DNA from: Sulfuricaulis limicola
GTDB lineage: Bacteria > Pseudomonadota > Gammaproteobacteria > Acidiferrobacterales > Sulfurifustaceae
NCBI RefSeq assembly: GCF_002355735.1
Contig: NZ_AP014879.1
Span: 1,984,001 to 2,048,000, forward strand
Length of the DNA: 64,000 nt
Reading direction: 5' to 3'
In this document: piece by piece, positions 14,620 through 53,977 of the stretch
Layout: each line of letters begins with the position of its first letter
Position numbering within the stretch: the stretch's first letter is position 1
Program-made: the position numbers and the translations under genes
The notes under the pieces: generated by a model
What the model saw: only the letters and a program-made list of their open reading frames with translations
Databases searched by the model: none
Told to the model about the DNA's origin: nothing

Positions 14620-16254
14620 TTAATCCGGCGTACCGTCGGCAACCACGCAGTTGCGGCCGATTTTTTTGGCGCGATACAGCGCGCGATCGGCCATGGCAAT
14701 CAGCTCCTCCGGCTTCTGCTGCTCCATGGGAACGAGACTGGCCACGCCGATGCTGACGGTCACATTACTGCCAACCTTTGACGCCGGATGCGCGAAGCCC
14801 ATGTTCTCGATCGCCGCGCGCAGGCGCTCGGCAAGCATGGCGGCGTTCCTGGCATCCGTCTCGGGCAGAATCGCGGCGAATTCCTCCCCGCCGTAACGCG
14901 CGACGACATCGCCGGCCCGGTGCAGGCCGCCGGCCAGGGTGTGCGCGATCCGGCGCAGGCATTCGTCGCCCGTCAGATGGCCGAGCGCGTCATTCAGGGC
15001 CTTGAAATAATCCACGTCGATCATGAGCAGCGCCAGCGGCTTGCGCGCGCGGCGTTCGCGACGCCATTCCAGATCCAGATGCTCCTGAAAGTAGCGGTGG
15101 TTGGCGATACCGGTGAGATCGTCCTGCGTGGACATGCGTTCGAGCCGCCGGTTGGCGCGCTCCAGATCGTGCGAGGCACCGAGCAACCGTTCTTGCGACA
15201 GATTCAGAATACGATTGAGACGCAGGATGTAAAACGCGATGGCGCTGAGCGCCACAACCAGCACCACCATGCCGGCAATCCAGTGCCAATACTGGCGCAG
15301 AATGTCCGCAGTCGACATCCTGCCGTAATCCTCGTAGGGGCCGACATGCAACTCGCGATAAAGCTCGTGCACGGGGGTGTAATCCAGCGGCACGGTCCAG
15401 CCGGCGGACTTGCTCGCTTGCGCCGCCGGGTGTCCGGGCGGCAGGCTCAGCAGCGCGATCGCCACTTGCTGCGCCAGCTCATCGGATGTCTGACGCGCCT
15501 TCGAGAACGGCCACTCGGGATAGAGCCGGGTGCTGAGCGCGAACGGGAAACCCTCTGCGTGTTGCGGGTTGAGGATGCGGAACTGGTCAAGCCGGATTTT
15601 CCCGTCCGCCGCCATGCGTTCCAGCATGTCGGTGCGCACCATGCCGGCGTCCACCTTGCCGTCACGTACCGCGTACACGATCGGGTCCTGCGGCAGGCCG
15701 ATGAATTTGATCTCGGTAAAATCCCTGAACGGATCAATGCCGTGATCCTTGAACTCGCGCCACGCCATGAGAAAACCGCCAAAGGCGTTCTTGTCCACCG
15801 CCATGAACGATCGCCCCCGCAGGTCCTCCAGGTGCTTGACGGACGGATGGTCGGCGCGCGTGAAAATCACCGACCCGAACACGGTATACGGCTGTCCCTG
15901 ACGCAGATTGCGCAGCGTCAGCATGCGCGTCACGCCGTACCGCGCCTCAAGCTCGACATAGGACCCGGGGTTGGTCAGGACGAACTCCACCTCGCCCTGT
16001 GCGACCGCGGGGCCGATGGTGTGATTGTCGAGCGGAACAATAAGGAAACGGCGACCGGGAATCCGTTGCGTCAGGTAATCCGCCGTCGGTGACCAGAGAT
16101 TCAGACTCTCCTGACTGTGCGCCAGCACACCGATGCGCACCGTATCGTCGAGGGCGGTGGCAACAGCGGGCGCCAGCAAGGCAAACAGCGCCACCAGCAT
16201 GGATGCAGCAAGCCGGAAGATGGTCCGCACGGCGGTAAGGGCGCCGCTCCCCAT
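14620..16254 (-). CDS. PhnD-like binding domain fused to GGDEF cyclase
   Basis: A signal-like N-terminus (about residues 8-33) leads into a periplasmic domain of about 250 residues. That domain resembles PhnD-type phosphate/phosphonate substrate-binding proteins (VRIGVLAHS, a central VLTNPGSYVELEARYGV). A membrane helix near 325-347 and a short coiled coil (ILNLSQERLLGASHDLERAN) connect it to a cytoplasmic GGDEF domain. The motif is GGEEF, and RAGD upstream fits the inhibitory I-site, so it should be active. The layout implies that ligand binding outside controls c-di-GMP synthesis inside. The ATG at 16254 is chosen because the signal peptide begins there; the extension to 16428 looks non-coding. 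Confidence 0.9.
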   Translation of the reverse strand: MGSGALTAVRTIFRLAASMLVALFALLAPAVATALDDTVRIGVLAHSQESLNLWSPTADYLTQRIPGRRFLIVPLDNHTIGPAVAQGEVEFVLTNPGSYVELEARYGVTRMLTLRNLRQGQPYTVFGSVIFTRADHPSVKHLEDLRGRSFMAVDKNAFGGFLMAWREFKDHGIDPFRDFTEIKFIGLPQDPIVYAVRDGKVDAGMVRTDMLERMAADGKIRLDQFRILNPQHAEGFPFALSTRLYPEWPFSKARQTSDELAQQVAIALLSLPPGHPAAQASKSAGWTVPLDYTPVHELYRELHVGPYEDYGRMSTADILRQYWHWIAGMVVLVVALSAIAFYILRLNRILNLSQERLLGASHDLERANRRLERMSTQDDLTGIANHRYFQEHLDLEWRRERRARKPLALLMIDVDYFKALNDALGHLTGDECLRRIAHTLAGGLHRAGDVVARYGGEEFAAILPETDARNAAMLAERLRAAIENMGFAHPASKVGSNVTVSIGVASLVPMEQQKPEELIAMADRALYRAKKIGRNCVVADGTPD

Positions 16255-16486
16255 GCCGAAAAACACTGTATACAGCCCTGGCGTGGATTCGGAGTATTGG
16301 GATGCCGATGCTTCAGATGAGCATATCCCGTGCCAAAACAAGCCAGCCCGGACTGTCGGTTTGACCCATGTCAATTTCCCCGGGAAACAGCGTTTGTTTG
16401 CCGCCTTGGCGGCCTGACGAAGGCTCAATACGAACCCCGCGGGGACCCGAGACGAACGCGATCCGGGGAGTGATAGCGCTTTAGAT

Positions 16487-17329
16487 TTATCCTGACGATG
16501 GATTTGACAGTGCTTTTGTCAGGTATTCGACAAAACGATCACGATAACTCTGGCGTTGAAACGCCTGGATGTGGCCGCCACCCGGCACGATCCACAGCTG
16601 TTTCGGTTCACGCGCAAGTTCGAACAGGCGTTGCCCGTGATGCACCGGCACGATCGGGTCCTGGTCGCCGTGAATGATCAGCAGCGGGATCGGGCTGATG
16701 GCCGCCACGGCGCGTGACGGGCTGTAGTCATCGGCTATCGTCCATGAAAGCGGATACTGGAACGGCCAGGTCAGCCAGAAGTCACCGAGCTTCTCGCGCG
16801 TGATGCTTCGGTATCCGGAAAACGCGCTCTCCACCACCAGCGCGCGAATGTGCCGGCGGTACGGCGAGTGCGCGACGTTGTAAATGGAAATGGCGCCACC
16901 GAGACTCTGGCCGAACATCACGAGGCGGTTGGCGTCTACGTCCGGGCGCGCGATCAACATCTTCAGCGCACTCTCCACGTCATCCTGCACGCCGGCCAGC
17001 GTGGGCTTGCCCGCGGAGGCGCCGTAGCCGCGGTAGTCCAGCAGGAACACGTTGAAGCCCCGCTCCGGCAACCAGCGCACCGACATGATGTGGGTGCTGA
17101 CGTTCTCGGCATTGCCGTGCAGAAACAGAATGGTCCCGAGCGCCCTGCCCGTCGCGGGCAGGAACCAGCCGTGCAGGCGCGTGCCGTCGCCGGCGTTGAA
17201 ATAAACGTCTTCGTACTTCAGCCCCAGCCGCTCGGGTGTCTGGACGTGCTCGCGATAGGGATAGAAAAAAACATTGCTGCAGCCGGCAAGGCCGAGCGAG
17301 AACAGGACAAGGATCAGCCAGCGCCGCAT
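16487..17329 (-). CDS. Alpha/beta-hydrolase lipoprotein
   Basis: This is a predicted lipoprotein with lipobox LAGC ending at Cys17, so the enzyme is tethered to a membrane facing the periplasm. The hydrolase core has HGNAENVS as the oxyanion region, nucleophile motif GQSLGG, an acid in HGDQDPIVP and a histidine in GGGHIQAF. It resembles the Bem46/YfhR-type hydrolases; the substrate is unknown. Its ATG shares a base with the stop codon of the upstream DUF4105 gene (TGATG), so the two are translationally coupled. This places it in a cell-envelope cluster with DUF4105 and DUF3015 proteins. Confidence 0.88.
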   Translation of the reverse strand: MRRWLILVLFSLGLAGCSNVFFYPYREHVQTPERLGLKYEDVYFNAGDGTRLHGWFLPATGRALGTILFLHGNAENVSTHIMSVRWLPERGFNVFLLDYRGYGASAGKPTLAGVQDDVESALKMLIARPDVDANRLVMFGQSLGGAISIYNVAHSPYRRHIRALVVESAFSGYRSITREKLGDFWLTWPFQYPLSWTIADDYSPSRAVAAISPIPLLIIHGDQDPIVPVHHGQRLFELAREPKQLWIVPGGGHIQAFQRQSYRDRFVEYLTKALSNPSSG

Positions 17330-19248
17330 CAGAAATAAAGATACAGCGATAGCTGCCCGCTGTTCCAGTAGTCGCGGAATTCCTGCTTGCGGGACAGGTT
17401 GAGACGCAGCGCGCTCTGCCGACCCAGCGCGTAGCGCTGCTCCAGCACCAGTTCACGCGCCCAGTGATCGTCCCCGAGGCCGTAACGCAAGGAGCGCGCC
17501 TGCAAATGGACACCCCAGCGTCCGGTGACGTCGGCCAGCAGGCCGATGGCGGGGCCGGCGCCCAGGGTGTAATTGCTCTCGAAACGCTGACTGGCGTCCA
17601 GCGCCACTTCGAGGAAACCATAGTAAACCGCGTTATTGCCGAACAGTTTGGGCGCGGCATAGGCCAGCCCGGGCCCTCCGTGGAGCCGGAATACCAGCGG
17701 TTCCGCGCCGTCCGCAAGACGCTTGCGCGTCCAGCCGACATTGATCTTCCATGACACCGGACTGAAGAAATCGTTGCGCGGCGACAGCGAGAAAATATCC
17801 AGCGGCTTGAAATCCTCCAGGCGCAGGCCGTCATCGTCCTGGTAGTGGCGGAAGCGCATGTCGAAAAACTGTATCTGCGCACCACGGGTGTAACCGGCGT
17901 CCTGATCCAGCAGGTCGTGATAGGTCGGGCGCAGGTGAATCTCCCCGAAACGGCGGCCATCCCGGCTTCCCGCCCCGATGCCGATGCGCGAGGTCTTGTG
18001 CCCCTCGTCCGGCCGGACCGCGGGGACTGGTATCTCCGGTTTCTGCGGCGGCACCGGCAGCCGGCTGCGGGCCAGCAGCAGTTCACGCATGTGCGCCGCG
18101 GCGTCGGGGGCCTTGTTGCGCCCGGTGGCCGATTCATAGGCGGCGTATTCATAGCCGAGTTCCAGCGCTTCGGCTTGGTCCACGGCCGGCAGTGCGCGCA
18201 CGCGACTGTCGTTCGCGTCAATTTTCTGCTTGCCCAAATCCCGCGCGAGCTCGCGCTCGGTTGCCGGCAGGTGCTTCAGCCGTTCCTGCATGATGGTGAC
18301 GCTGGCGGGACGATAGACCACGCGCTTGAGCAGCCCCGGCTGGTCTGCCACGGCGCGCACGGTGTCGGAGGGAATCGCCCACCAGCGGAAACGGTCGGTC
18401 AGCGGCAGGCCAGGGCGCGCCACCTCCAGCAGCGACAGCAGATGATAGGCGCAATTTTCGTCGAAAAAATAATAATCGAACCGGGTCGGGCCCAGCTCCC
18501 ACGCGTGCATCACCAGACGGTCGATTTCCTCCTGCGTGAGCGTCAATTGATATTCCCATACATCACGATTTTCAATGTCGCTGTATTCCCGCACCTTGAG
18601 ATAATACGGCGTAATCGCAAAAACCCCAGGATAACCTCCGAACAATCCCTTGACCGCAAAAATCAGGCCACTGGTCTCAGCCGTACCGGCGGCATAACTG
18701 ATGGAATAGGCGAGCAATCGTGTTTTTTCATCCTGATCCCTGGCGTCGATGCGCAGCAGCGTGTGACCGTACATCGAGGCTGGGTTGTTCAGGTAGGCGG
18801 CGGGAAACACCAGCGTGATTTCATGCGGGTCGAGGCTGGCGCGCCATTGGTAAAAACGCTTGCAGGGTTGCGGCGGCAGGCGCGCCGGATCGAAGCGCAA
18901 CTCCTGCTTCAGCCACTGGTAACGCGCGATGAACCGGCACTGGGGATTCTGCGTCTTGTCGGTCTCCTCGGCGGTGGAGAAAAACGCGGCGAGCGTCGCC
19001 TCCAACTCGGCGGCGGCGTCGTTCCTGCCATCGGGTGCATTAAAAAACCCGGGATCGTCGGCAAGACTGCGGCTGCCGAACCAGTAGGCATAAGGCTTGT
19101 AGTGCAGCAGGTTCAGCCACTCGGCGCGCTGCGACAGGTTTTCCTGCCGGGCCCGTTGAATCAGCTCTTCGAGATAGGCATTGCCGGTCGCGAAAACCGC
19201 ACACGGAAACCACAACAGAATGAGCAATAAAATCCGGCGCCCGGGCAT
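17329..19248 (-). CDS. DUF4105 (Lnb_N-type) protein with C-terminal beta-barrel
   Basis: The N-terminus carries a signal peptide (about 1-20). The DUF4105 region (about 130-300) has a His in YGHTLLRID (His162) and a Cys in DENCAYHLL (Cys266). This order, with His before Cys, is that of permuted papain-like enzymes. As I recall, this family is now called Lnb_N, after a Bacteroides lipoprotein N-acyltransferase. Roughly the last 200 residues are short alternating strands ending in Leu-Tyr-Phe, which suggests an outer-membrane barrel. The protein is therefore probably an outer-membrane protein with a periplasmic Cys/His domain. Whether it acylates lipoproteins here is inference. It is coupled to the downstream lipoprotein hydrolase. 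Confidence 0.82.
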   Translation of the reverse strand: MPGRRILLLILLWFPCAVFATGNAYLEELIQRARQENLSQRAEWLNLLHYKPYAYWFGSRSLADDPGFFNAPDGRNDAAAELEATLAAFFSTAEETDKTQNPQCRFIARYQWLKQELRFDPARLPPQPCKRFYQWRASLDPHEITLVFPAAYLNNPASMYGHTLLRIDARDQDEKTRLLAYSISYAAGTAETSGLIFAVKGLFGGYPGVFAITPYYLKVREYSDIENRDVWEYQLTLTQEEIDRLVMHAWELGPTRFDYYFFDENCAYHLLSLLEVARPGLPLTDRFRWWAIPSDTVRAVADQPGLLKRVVYRPASVTIMQERLKHLPATERELARDLGKQKIDANDSRVRALPAVDQAEALELGYEYAAYESATGRNKAPDAAAHMRELLLARSRLPVPPQKPEIPVPAVRPDEGHKTSRIGIGAGSRDGRRFGEIHLRPTYHDLLDQDAGYTRGAQIQFFDMRFRHYQDDDGLRLEDFKPLDIFSLSPRNDFFSPVSWKINVGWTRKRLADGAEPLVFRLHGGPGLAYAAPKLFGNNAVYYGFLEVALDASQRFESNYTLGAGPAIGLLADVTGRWGVHLQARSLRYGLGDDHWARELVLEQRYALGRQSALRLNLSRKQEFRDYWNSGQLSLYLYF

Positions 19249-19272
19249 GGGGTAACAATCATGGCAGATATG

Positions 19273-19305
19273 AAAACGGCACCCAGCTTACAACAGCTGG
19301 GTGCC
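19273..19305 (-). terminator. Rho-independent terminator after the DUF3015 gene
   Basis: Eleven-bp arms GGCACCCAGCT and AGCTGGGTGCC with a short loop are followed, on the minus strand, by GTTTTC. It lies just downstream of the DUF3015 gene and before the DUF4105 gene, so the two are probably separate transcripts. Confidence 0.8.
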
Positions 19306-19328
19306 GCCGTGATACGACAGCTTGGCGA

Positions 19329-19814
19329 TTAGATCGACAGGGAATACTGAGCGAGTTCGCTGTCCGACGCCAACACCTGCTTCAGCGAGGCCAACACCTG
19401 ATCCGTGGTGGCGTTGTCGGAAGAGAAGATCTTCGCAAAATTTTCCTTGGTGGCCTGGAAGAACGCCGGCTTGTGCTGATCCTGAACGCCGATCAGCTTG
19501 GCCAGGGATTCCAGCGACTCACCGCTGCCGGTAGACATGTCGCGCGCCAGCTTTTCCTTGTTGCCGTCGATGAACATGGCGGTCTTCCAGTCGGACTTTA
19601 CCACACCGTCCTGTTTGCAGCCCGAGGTGCCGGAAGTGACGCCAAAGGTATTAATGAACGTACCATTGGTGGTCATTGCGAGAACTTGCGGTGCAATGCC
19701 CTTTTGTCCATCAAAAAGTTTAGAGCCCACACCACAATTCCCATCGGCACCCGCCATTGCGCCAACCGGGAACATGCCTACTAAAGCGACAACCATGAGC
19801 TTCTTGTTCAACAT
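19329..19814 (-). CDS. DUF3015 family periplasmic protein
   Basis: This is a small secreted protein (161 aa) with a signal peptide ending near GAMAGA. The mature part begins with DGNCGVGSKLFDGQKG and has a characteristic LAMTTNGTFINTFGVTSGT stretch and a second cysteine in GCKQDG, so one disulfide is possible. This is the pattern of the DUF3015 family, whose function is unknown. AGGAGG lies 8 nt before the ATG, a strong ribosome binding site that suggests high expression. It lies between two DUF4105 genes; co-location of these two families is seen here and I recall it from other gammaproteobacteria. Confidence 0.85.
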   Translation of the reverse strand: MLNKKLMVVALVGMFPVGAMAGADGNCGVGSKLFDGQKGIAPQVLAMTTNGTFINTFGVTSGTSGCKQDGVVKSDWKTAMFIDGNKEKLARDMSTGSGESLESLAKLIGVQDQHKPAFFQATKENFAKIFSSDNATTDQVLASLKQVLASDSELAQYSLSI

Positions 19815-20060
19815 TAAGTATCCTCCTGATATTAAAGGGGTACAGCCGCCTGATTACGCTTACATCCAATTCACTTATATGCTCGGTTAATTAAAGAGTC
19901 AAGGGTAATGCGGGGGTTTTCAGCATGGTTCATGACGCCCTAACCAAAACTCATCTTCCAGCCATGAGCGGAATCCCGATCAGTCCGCCGAACCAGCATG
20001 ATCAACCGATAGTCGGTGAATAACGGCAGCCACGAAGATAGCGTGGCGACTCATTGGAGA

Positions 20061-21788
20061 CTAGATTGGCAGGTTTAACGAGGCCATCGTTTTGCTGTTA
20101 CCAGTTGGCGCATGGATATATCGGATGTTAAAGAAGCCTTTATCTAGTGGTGAGCTTAGAAATATTTCGTGCTGTCGATAATGCTGCTGATGGAATTGTT
20201 TGTCTGAGATCTGGAGACCGAGTTTAATGCTAGCCGGGAAATAACCCATCAAAATGATGTTCGGCTTCAGATAGAAATCTACTCCGTGACTCTCTTGTAA
20301 TCCCGCAGATACTGAAACGTCAAAAGTAACATCGCGATTACCAAAATTATGGCCTAATCCTAATTCCAGTTCAGCACGCATTTCATCTCTAACATTAGCG
20401 CGGTTAAAACCAAAGTAGAAGCTCCACGACAACGGTTGCCATAAGAGTGGATGGTTCGGTATAGAGCGAATTTTTAAAAGATCAAGTTGCTCAAGACGAA
20501 AACCTTTGCTGTATGCCAATAATTGCACATCAAACAAAGCAAGCTCTGTTTCTTGGTTCACTGCACTCTGTGGCACGTATATATCGCGTAGCATGGGACG
20601 GTATCCAAACAAAACTCCGGTTCGTGTCGTGCTTCTAAATACGCCAAAAAGCACCCGGTCTGATTCGGAATTCTCCAATGGATCAATAAAGAAGGGCTTG
20701 AACGAGGACGGTGAGTACTGCAAGGATTGGACTTGGTCATAGTTTGCGTAAATGATTTTATGTCTGCGAAATGAGTACTGATAGTGAAGTGCAAGCACTT
20801 CTTTCACATGGTCAGGCATGGTGTCAGAGGGAATTGAGCGTTGAGCAATAACATCTTTTACAGTCCGTAACTCATCAGTAGTTAATTTCTTCAACAAATT
20901 ATCAACACGCAGCAATGAGGGGCTCAACGACGACCGTTCCGTTAAGCGATCAGCATAGAGTTTCACCACGTCGATAGGCAGCACAAAACTCGCACTCTCT
21001 AGTGTACGAGTTTCGTCGGGTAATCCAATAGCTAGTAGTTCAGAAATTTGGAATGCACAGTTTTCTTTTATAAAGTAATAATGGAAACGAGCTTTGCGTA
21101 GTTCGTACAAATGCAGGACAATCCGTGAAATCTCCTCGGGTGAGAAATCAAGCCGATAAATATACATCGCGCGCTGTTCATGCACGGTATACTCATTCAG
21201 CTTGCGAAAAAACGGGCCGCGAATATAATATCCAGCGTATTTTCCACTCACACCGCTGTACACGTAGCGAAAGAATCCATCAGGCTCGGTTTGCGCGGAA
21301 AAATGAACAGCCTCAGCTAACGGAATTGGTATGTCATGGTTATTGAATACCAATAAAATGTGACCGAATGCTGATGCAGGAGCGTCAACAAGCTCTGAAA
21401 CGAAAACGATATTCAGAGTTTCTTTCTGAAAGCTATGAAGAAACTTCTGGAGATTTTCGCATTTTTTCAAATCAAAATTTGGTAGGTCAGAAACCTGTTT
21501 ACGCAGCCAAGCATAACGAGCAGGAAAATTGCAGGCGACGTCATTGCCCTGAGAGCTTTTGAGTAATCGGATAGTTTCTTTTTGCTCGCCTAGAGCATCT
21601 TGCTGTCCATTGATTGATACAAAAAACTCTTCTGAGATCACTCGGCTACGAGTGCCATCAAAGTGCAGTAGTTTTTCCCAATAACTCCTCTCTTTATGAA
21701 GTTGATCACCAAACGAAGCTGTACTTACAAGTAACGTTAGTACCAGTACCACGAGGGCGCTTGTCGGTAAATGAATATGCAATGTCAT
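20061..21788 (-). CDS. Second DUF4105 (Lnb_N-type) protein, AT-rich
   Basis: This is a divergent paralogue of the protein at 17329-19248. It has a signal peptide (about 1-26), the His motif FGHILLVF (His143) and the Cys motif KENCAFQISE (Cys244), so both putative catalytic residues are kept. The C-terminal half is again strand-rich and could be a barrel, but it ends in LNLPI rather than an aromatic residue. Base composition is clearly more AT-rich than the first copy, and codon choice (many AAA, AAT, TTA) differs from the flanks, suggesting later acquisition. No ribosome binding site is obvious at the ATG. The function may parallel that of the first copy, on a different substrate. Confidence 0.8.
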   Translation of the reverse strand: MTLHIHLPTSALVVLVLTLLVSTASFGDQLHKERSYWEKLLHFDGTRSRVISEEFFVSINGQQDALGEQKETIRLLKSSQGNDVACNFPARYAWLRKQVSDLPNFDLKKCENLQKFLHSFQKETLNIVFVSELVDAPASAFGHILLVFNNHDIPIPLAEAVHFSAQTEPDGFFRYVYSGVSGKYAGYYIRGPFFRKLNEYTVHEQRAMYIYRLDFSPEEISRIVLHLYELRKARFHYYFIKENCAFQISELLAIGLPDETRTLESASFVLPIDVVKLYADRLTERSSLSPSLLRVDNLLKKLTTDELRTVKDVIAQRSIPSDTMPDHVKEVLALHYQYSFRRHKIIYANYDQVQSLQYSPSSFKPFFIDPLENSESDRVLFGVFRSTTRTGVLFGYRPMLRDIYVPQSAVNQETELALFDVQLLAYSKGFRLEQLDLLKIRSIPNHPLLWQPLSWSFYFGFNRANVRDEMRAELELGLGHNFGNRDVTFDVSVSAGLQESHGVDFYLKPNIILMGYFPASIKLGLQISDKQFHQQHYRQHEIFLSSPLDKGFFNIRYIHAPTGNSKTMASLNLPI

Positions 21789-21821
21789 GCCGCGATTAAT
21801 GAGCGGAGATTATGACGCCTA

Positions 21822-21852
21822 GAAAGAAAAACCCCGCCGGTGCGGCGGGGTT
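21822..21852 (-). terminator. Strong rho-independent terminator
   Basis: Ten-bp arms AACCCCGCCG and CGGCGGGGTT enclose a 3 nt loop, with TTTTTCTTTC following on the minus strand. It ends the two-gene unit at 21865-22482 and isolates it from the DUF4105 gene downstream. Confidence 0.9.
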
Positions 21853-21864
21853 CCATTCCGTGGC

Positions 21865-22107
21865 CTATGGTGCTTGATGGCTGCTGATCTTCTTCAAAAA
21901 CTCCACCGGGTCAGCTGTACTGGCGATCAATTCTAACGTCATTTCGCTGGCCGTTATGAGCGGAATACCTAGGTCTTGCGACACCAATTCATACAGTGCC
22001 GCCATCAGTATCTTGTCATGCGTGTTACGTATAGTGAAATAATAGGTAAGCACGAAAGCACGAAGATCATCTGCAACTTGCCGGTCAAGCAAGCCGTAGT
22101 TAGCCAT
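21865..22107 (-). CDS. Small protein of unknown function
   Basis: This 80-residue protein has no signal peptide or membrane segment and is predicted to be mostly helical. I do not recognise a family. The start ATG follows directly after the stop codon of the lipoprotein gene (no gap), so it is almost certainly translated by coupling from the same mRNA. A terminator follows. Base composition is AT-rich like its neighbours. Its pairing with an exported lipoprotein is notable because the small protein itself looks cytoplasmic. Confidence 0.65.
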   Translation of the reverse strand: MANYGLLDRQVADDLRAFVLTYYFTIRNTHDKILMAALYELVSQDLGIPLITASEMTLELIASTADPVEFLKKISSHQAP

Positions 22108-22482
22108 TCATGTACCGGCTTCTTCCTTCTTTAGTTGAAAATGGAATGTGTTCGGCACGTACTCGTAAGCAGCACCAGTGACGAAATCGGTCGTGCTTAA
22201 ATCCCAAAAAATGTTAAGAAGAGCGACGCCATCATATTTCTTATCCAACGGCATCGTTTGAACCTTATAGCCGTCCTTCTTGATCGTTATGACGCTCGCA
22301 GAGTTCTTCTTGACCTTGGTGCTTAATGGGGTAACACCAATGGAAATGCCATCGATACTGACCAGGGCTCCGTCTGGTTCACTATTGATAGTAAGCACTT
22401 GATCTGTCCCCTTGATAATAGAAGCGCAGCCAGTAGAAAGAGCAGCAACAGACAGAAAAACAACCACAGATCGTAATCTCAT
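22108..22482 (-). CDS. PEGA-domain-like lipoprotein
   Basis: This is a predicted lipoprotein of 124 aa with lipobox LSTGC, Cys18, in a short signal peptide. The mature part includes INSEPDGALVSIDGISIGVTP, the typical pattern of PEGA-like beta domains found on surface proteins, followed by a basic stretch and KKDGYKVQ. The ATG at 22482 is chosen over 22524 because AGGAGAATCAATA immediately precedes it and the signal begins there. It forms a two-gene unit with the small protein downstream. Function unknown; it is likely structural or binding at the envelope. Confidence 0.78.
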   Translation of the reverse strand: MRLRSVVVFLSVAALSTGCASIIKGTDQVLTINSEPDGALVSIDGISIGVTPLSTKVKKNSASVITIKKDGYKVQTMPLDKKYDGVALLNIFWDLSTTDFVTGAAYEYVPNTFHFQLKKEEAGT

Positions 22483-22833
22483 TATTGATTCTCCTAGCGT
22501 TGTTATAAAAATCCATCCACCCACGTCGACACGCTTTGCAGATTTAAATTCTGCTGTGCGTTATCAAACATACGTTTAATGGAGTGCACCTTCACAGAAA
22601 ACCATTTTTAATAACCAGCTTCCCAAGGAAGCTAAAATAGCATATTCCGAATATGCCAAAATGCATAGATAGCTGAGAGGTGGGGTGGAAGACAGATCAA
22701 ATTAGTCAAAATCAATATTTTCTTTATAAGCCAATGGCTTGAGAATACCAGTGTCGCCAACATAATTGGCGCCGTTTGATGCAAGCGCCATCAGGCCCGA
22801 GACAATGCCACCTGATTACGTCCTCAGAGATGG
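22483..22833. other. AT-rich intergenic region, no gene seen
   Basis: These 351 nt contain no plausible coding frame and no strong hairpin. They are AT-rich and hold the promoter region of the lipoprotein gene on the minus strand. The composition returns to GC-rich at the edge of the ZIP gene, so this marks the right boundary of the AT-rich segment that starts near 19830. Confidence 0.6.
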
Positions 22834-53509: not shown

Positions 53510-53977
53510 ATGCGATTCGGGACCATCACCCTGCTGGCGAATCTTGCCGTCCTGGCCGTGCTGTCCGGATGCGGTCACACGCCCGCGGAGGAATCCATCC
53601 CGCCATTGGCCAGCCGTGCAGCGGATCAGGCACTGGCCATGGTCGGCAAACCCTATCGGTATGGCGGCAACACCCCGAAAGGTTTCGATTGCAGCGGTCT
53701 GGTGCAATACAGCTATGCGCGTGTCGGTGTGAGGCTTCCGCAGGGCACCCGCAACTTGCTGCAGATATCCCAACCCATTTCCCGCCACAAGCTGAGACGC
53801 GGCGACCTGGTGTTCTTCACCCAGGAAGGCAGGCGCTCGTCGCATGTCGCGCTCTATCTTGGCGACGACCGCTTTGTACATTCGCCTTCCAGCGGCAAAA
53901 AAGTGCATGTCGCCGGCTTCGACGATGCCTACTGGCAACGTCATTTCACGGAAGCGCGACGCCTCGAGATCGATTGA
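53510..53977 (+). CDS. NlpC/P60 family lipoprotein hydrolase
   Basis: A 155-aa lipoprotein (lipobox LSGC, Cys20) with an NlpC/P60 domain that cuts peptidoglycan stem peptides or related amides. The catalytic Cys is in FDCSGLVQYSYAR, His in SSHVALYLGDD and the third polar residue likely in FVHSPSSGK. GKPYRYGGNTPKG precedes the Cys as in the Spr/NlpC group. The ATG at 53510 starts the signal peptide. It lies between a PLD-like and a secretin-like gene, all on the plus strand and only 2-14 nt apart. Confidence 0.92.
   Translation: MRFGTITLLANLAVLAVLSGCGHTPAEESIPPLASRAADQALAMVGKPYRYGGNTPKGFDCSGLVQYSYARVGVRLPQGTRNLLQISQPISRHKLRRGDLVFFTQEGRRSSHVALYLGDDRFVHSPSSGKKVHVAGFDDAYWQRHFTEARRLEID

Follow-up and report, generated by a model that had tools for sequence, protein, structure and literature searches.

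The window analyzed here is a stretch of 64,000 nucleotides of the Sulfuricaulis limicola genome (NZ_AP014879.1, positions 1,984,001 to 2,048,000), which is complete, 2.86 Mb in size and has a GC content of ~62%. It contains two genes for DUF4105 proteins, lnb1 and lnb2, within a group of six genes all located on the minus strand in the order PEGA lipoprotein, open reading frame (ORF) of 80 amino acids (aa), lnb2, DUF3015, lnb1 and lipoprotein hydrolase. An earlier interpretation of this DNA, made from the letters alone (the sequence-only reading), had noted that the DUF4105 genes flank the DUF3015 gene, and the ORF order agrees with this. Analysis of related genomes revealed that the locus is real and more general than was recognized at first, and that its Lnb_N enzymes are of an already known kind. 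The features of the module formed by DUF3015, lnb1 and the hydrolase are the following.

17329..19248, minus strand: lnb1 (DUF4105 no. 1), 639 aa; signal peptide, DUF7843, Lnb_N (residues 132-302), DUF7842 and probable DUF7840 barrel (411-638)
18763..18765, minus strand: His162 codon of lnb1, GH motif, putative catalytic residue; invariant in 28 homologues
18451..18453, minus strand: Cys266 codon of lnb1, NC motif, putative nucleophile; invariant in 28 homologues
19275..19308, minus strand: terminator-like hairpin between DUF3015 and lnb1, 14 pairs followed by TTTTC; position conserved across phyla
19329..19814, minus strand: DUF3015 protein, 161 aa, secreted, with two invariant Cys, dedicated partner of lnb1; PF11220, 157 bits
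16487..17329, minus strand: lipoprotein alpha/beta-hydrolase, 280 aa, optional third member of the module; lipobox LAGC, GQSLG nucleophile elbow

Enzyme family, conserved residues and probable C-terminal barrel

DUF4105 is now named Lnb_N in Pfam (PF13387), as the sequence-only reading had stated, and both proteins match this family, lnb1 with 206 bits and lnb2 with 123.4 bits (cut-off 22.2). The closest named relative of lnb1 is found in a Sulfuricaulis sp. assembly (78% identity). In both enzymes His precedes Cys in the chain, which is the permuted NlpC/P60 order, and the positions originally assigned to the two pairs (H162/C266 in lnb1, H143/C244 in lnb2) are correct. Alignment of 28 diverse homologues, both window copies included, showed that the GH and NC motifs are invariant; the Cys pair C104/C129, R109, Y222, R228, Y233, E251 and Y259 are likewise invariant. 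The two motifs are also kept across 53 closer homologues. DUF4105 has been described as a permuted NlpC/P60 family and a sister of the phospholipase toxin Tox-Act1 (PMC12994826), and the papain-like fold with its permuted helix has been asserted for it (PMC10318531, PMC12994826). A sequence search of solved structures gave no relative of lnb1 or DUF3015, only chance matches.

The C-terminal part of lnb1 matches Pfam DUF7840 with 271 bits. The last residue is F, W or Y in 110 out of 135 full-length homologues versus a background of 11% (p 5e-79), and hydrophobic residues alternate back from the C-terminus throughout the family, a pattern typical of barrels that are inserted into the outer membrane. 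The C-terminus of lnb1, ...LYLYF, has both the terminal Phe and an alternating hydrophobic last strand. lnb2 matches only part of DUF7840 and terminates in Ile, with the alternation kept. No membrane helices were found beyond the signal peptide in either protein. Overall, lnb1 is probably an outer-membrane barrel protein, as its C-terminus had suggested from the outset. Other DUF4105 proteins in the class Gammaproteobacteria have a different build: some are short, with membrane helices at the N-terminus, and some contain DUF7844.

Two further observations concern related sequences. A weak match to Peptidase_C92, another permuted NlpC/P60 family, is present in the window at 53606-53743 (plus strand; 20.9 bits, below cut-off), and a decayed DUF4105 gene with several internal stops was found at G034:C1:162642-164291.

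Pairing with DUF3015 and the conserved hairpin

We surveyed 274 genomes of the class, 65 of which carry DUF4105 and 49 DUF3015. DUF4105 is present in all 49 genomes with DUF3015 (Fisher p 1e-40), and in 44 of them the DUF3015 gene is immediately followed by a DUF4105 gene on the same strand. Among 80 named loci drawn from Gamma- and Betaproteobacteria, Nitrospira and deltaproteobacterial lineages, DUF3015 was found just upstream in 74; the other six begin no more than ~250 bases from a contig end. In the window it directly precedes lnb1 and not lnb2. The enzymes are split into A and B types and the DUF3015 proteins are split identically (46/46 tested), and two genomes, G077 and G112, each hold one A pair and one B pair with types matched. 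In some loci two or three tandem DUF3015 genes precede a single enzyme gene.

The hydrolase had been put forward as a partner of lnb1, coupled to it translationally. A one-base overlap (TGATG) does join the lnb1 stop and the hydrolase start, and therefore translational coupling is plausible. A hydrolase gene is located downstream in ~40 loci, mostly overlapping or close, and a lipobox is present in 34 of 47 orthologues (ORF as called). It is missing from many pairs, including Zoogloea and most deltaproteobacterial loci. The neighbourhood survey thus upheld the DUF4105-DUF3015 association and changed the rank of its members: DUF3015 is the near-obligate partner of the barrel enzyme (a PEGA lipoprotein in the case of lnb2), and the hydrolase is optional. 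Directly downstream of the hydrolase, at 14620-16428 (minus strand), lies a gene for a diguanylate cyclase whose periplasmic binding domain is PhnD/TtrS-like; in the relatives L125 and L073 no such gene separates the hydrolase from nadC.

Nine loci of several unrelated lineages (L125, L074, L124, L156, L157, L159, L161, L175 and L176) have the pair next to polyene-type (aryl-polyene-like) or fatty-acid-type clusters, which hold, in varying sets, ketoacyl synthase, acyl carrier protein, AMP ligase, hotdog dehydratase, HtrB-like acyltransferase, LolA-like and MMPL genes. This neighbourhood is a weak, independent pointer to outer-membrane lipids. In two Acinetobacter loci (L207 and L208) the pair adjoins an ADC beta-lactamase gene.

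The gap between DUF3015 and the enzyme gene was analyzed for secondary structure. A strong hairpin followed by T-rich DNA is present in 81 of 110 pairs versus 2 expected from shuffles, and in 77/102 pairs versus 26/459 gaps of comparable size between other neighbouring genes on one strand (odds ratio 51). The p-values overstate the evidence, since related genomes do not count as independent, and more weight attaches to the occurrence of the hairpin in several phyla. Hairpin sequences vary between lineages and the location is constant. The median gap is ~57 bases, which in most cases is too short for a separate promoter, and therefore the enzyme is probably made by read-through, with DUF3015 over-produced. 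An Rfam scan of the region gave no known RNA, and a known riboswitch was rejected on this ground.

A literature search that left most subscription papers outside its reach located DUF3015 only in an expression table, with no functional paper, and no description of the DUF3015-DUF4105 pair or its terminator. The conserved partner and the expression layout appear to be undescribed.

The second copy, lnb2

The genes upstream of DUF3015 contain a second enzyme of this family with a different small neighbour.

20061..21788, minus strand: lnb2 (DUF4105 no. 2), 575 aa; DUF7843, Lnb_N and partial DUF7840; 43% GC; tentatively of the PEGA-associated type
21360..21362, minus strand: His143 codon of lnb2, aligned with the His162 GH motif of lnb1
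21057..21059, minus strand: Cys244 codon of lnb2, aligned with the Cys266 NC motif of lnb1
21828..21854, minus strand: intrinsic-terminator-like hairpin between the 80-aa ORF and lnb2
21865..22107, minus strand: 80-aa ORF directly after the PEGA gene; no family match and no homologue among the loci searched
22108..22482, minus strand: small PEGA-domain lipoprotein; ATG behind AGGAG, lipobox LSTGC; relatives adjoin other lnb2-type genes

Two features had escaped the sequence-only reading: terminator-like hairpins stand ahead of both enzyme genes, and lnb2, the 80-aa ORF and the PEGA gene have a GC content of 43-47% versus ~62% for the genome. The low-GC stretch extends over 19815-22833, between a ZIP gene and DUF3015. 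A family relative (G207) has ~1.9 kb of other sequence there, and neither the 80-aa ORF nor PEGA has a match between its DUF3015 and ZIP genes or in the Sulfuricaulis locus L125. Gene gain and loss may be frequent at this site, and lnb2 was probably acquired horizontally.

In the tree lnb2 falls in a divergent set of seven, six of which have a PEGA lipoprotein as neighbour (the window, L112, L119, L183, L246 and L248). Among the 52 other members, no enzyme gene has PEGA as its immediate neighbour; in L086 a PEGA gene is located ahead of DUF3015. The split has a support value of 86, with long branches, so that the placement of lnb2 in the PEGA-associated group is tentative. lnb2 looks like a second version of the module idea, with the PEGA lipoprotein as a different small partner.

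A related-locus search with lnb2 alone gave no relative, none was found among viral contigs, and neither enzyme had a match in PHROGs. A phage origin of lnb2 is not claimed: the readable annotated phage and plasmid matches are DUF3015-paired relatives on chromosome-like or large-replicon DNA. A chromosome-like Acinetobacter stretch with the pair is filed as Acinetobacter phage MD-2021a and is probably a mislabelled contig. Shortening of lnb2 by a frameshift was considered and rejected, as the downstream frames hold no open continuation.

Proposed role and comparison with known systems

DUF4105 drew interest as the missing lipoprotein N-acyltransferase of Bacteroides. The equivalog model for that enzyme (NF051878) gave 16.6 bits for lnb1 versus a cut-off of 550 and no match for lnb2. 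The host genome carries a full Lnt (346 bits), and Lnt is found at E ~1e-73 or better in 47 of the 49 surveyed genomes with DUF3015; the remaining two, both fragmented assemblies, have Lnt at E 1.5e-37 and 5.9e-17. Because Lnt coexists with the pair, the region was rejected as an Lnt substitute. From the model score and this coexistence, the identification of lnb1 as a lipoprotein N-ACYLTRANSFERASE of the Lnb kind is not supported. What stands of the envelope-modifying system first envisaged is an outer-membrane location, by sequence, with a recurrent lipoprotein hydrolase as neighbour; lipoprotein modification of the Lnb kind does not.

The situation in G012 and G165, two genomes of one family (L102, L103, L116, L123), is a separate one. 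They have no full-length Lnt (best E 7.6e-7 and 7.3e-9), and each carries three DUF4105 genes, including one for the short form with membrane helices at the N-terminus. It is possible that these genes are true Lnt substitutes in Gammaproteobacteria.

We propose, with a probability of about 0.45 for the whole, that lnb1 is a thiol acyl-transfer enzyme at the outer membrane, DUF3015 its dedicated and over-produced partner, and the hydrolase a processor of the product. The proposal is built on what can be read from the sequences, namely the family, the conserved residues, the barrel signature of lnb1, the DUF3015 pairing, the hairpin and the coexistence with Lnt; the chemistry, the substrate, the role of the partner, the expression ratio and the horizontal origin of lnb2 are inferred. 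The C-terminal barrel would fix lnb1 in the outer membrane with the enzyme domain facing the periplasm. His162 would activate Cys266, which would remove an acyl chain from an inner-leaflet phospholipid, and the bound chain would be handed to an acceptor, or to water if there is none. DUF3015 may be a soluble periplasmic partner serving as acceptor, lipid carrier or regulator; it would share one operon with lnb1, with the terminator allowing only a fraction of transcripts to extend into the enzyme gene. A reaction product, for instance a lysolipid or an acyl ester, could be processed by the lipoprotein hydrolase. lnb2 would be a further enzyme with this architecture, gained by horizontal transfer, whose relatives have a small PEGA lipoprotein as partner. 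Thiol acyl chemistry on lipids is the best guess because DUF4105 sits beside the Tox-Act1 phospholipase and includes Lnb, for which acyl transfer is described (PMC12994826).

Several points weigh against this proposal. DUF3015 has no conserved Lys to mark an obvious acyl acceptor, and the hydrolase and polyene neighbours occur in part of the loci only. Comparison of Lnb_N with the bacterial C92 and LRAT families by hhalign was not significant, a result to be read together with the failure of the positive control (C92 versus LRAT).

An enzyme at the same location could instead simply be a phospholipase A of the outer membrane, a housekeeping counterpart of OmpLA, with excess DUF3015 as its inhibitor and the hydrolase finishing lysophospholipids. 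The sister clade Tox-Act1 cleaves phosphatidylglycerol and phosphatidylethanolamine (PMC12994826), the small partner is encoded first, before an attenuating hairpin, as is usual for inhibitor-enzyme pairs, and monoacylglycerol lipases and esterases are among the solved structures nearest to the hydrolase. The sole characterised DUF4105 protein, Lnb, is a transferase, however, and the hydrolase is missing from many pairs; we regard this alternative as doubtful, although it deserves attention. An outer-membrane Lnb, acting as a lipoprotein N-acyltransferase or remodeller, would account for the Pfam domain common to both, the mutual displacement of DUF4105 and Lnt reported for certain contexts (PMC12994826) and the lipoprotein partner of lnb2-type enzymes. 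The low Lnb score and the strong Lnt in nearly all genomes with the pair make it improbable. Moreover, N-acylation by Lnt occurs in the inner membrane, before lipoprotein sorting, whereas lnb1 is probably an outer-membrane protein. We consider equally improbable a peptidase or amidase which matures DUF3015 or acts on peptidoglycan, like canonical NlpC/P60 enzymes. Membership in the papain-like superfamily (PMC10318531) would fit it, and a small secreted protein that is so strictly paired might be what the enzyme cleaves, but bacterial permuted (His-before-Cys) members have links to lipids (PMC12994826), and barrel anchoring and polyene-lipid neighbours suggest lipids as well.

Within the acyl-transfer proposal, DUF3015 itself could be a post-export acyl acceptor: the barrel enzyme would lipidate a soluble periplasmic protein straight from phospholipid, independently of Lgt and Lnt, and the PEGA lipoprotein would take that role in lnb2-type pairs. 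We hold this for a long shot. If true, it would provide an Lgt/Lnt-independent way to make membrane-bound proteins at the outer membrane.

The name Lnb_N now extends to proteobacterial proteins. The data indicate that the barrel forms of Proteobacteria and Nitrospira are something else, an outer-membrane module with near-obligate DUF3015 which coexists with Lnt. DUF3015 gains a testable place as partner of a candidate outer-membrane lipid enzyme, in a stoichiometry probably set by the conserved terminator.

Lnb is the lipoprotein N-acyltransferase of Bacteroides (NF051878; Armbruster 2024 as cited in PMC12994826). The window enzymes share with it the Lnb_N domain and the order His then Cys; they differ in scoring far under the Lnb cut-off, in their DUF7843/DUF7842/DUF7840 outer-membrane architecture without helices beyond the signal peptide, in the DUF3015 partner and in the presence of Lnt. 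Tox-Act1, a Salmonella phospholipase effector of the type VI secretion system, branches as sister to DUF4105 in the published tree and resembles the window enzymes in its permuted His/Cys core and periplasmic action, but it is a secreted toxin with an immunity gene, whereas they are chromosomally encoded, conserved and equipped with a barrel of their own. LRAT, HRASLS and YiiX (C92) have the same His-to-Cys order, and the NC at the nucleophile resembles the NCEHF of LRAT; they lack both barrel and DUF3015, and gave no significant profile match to Lnb_N (the control also failed). OmpLA/PldA and PagP are closest in the proposed site and chemistry, acting on acyl chains of outer-membrane phospholipids. 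These are not thiol enzymes and their active site is within the barrel, whereas that of the window enzymes is predicted to lie in a separate periplasmic domain.

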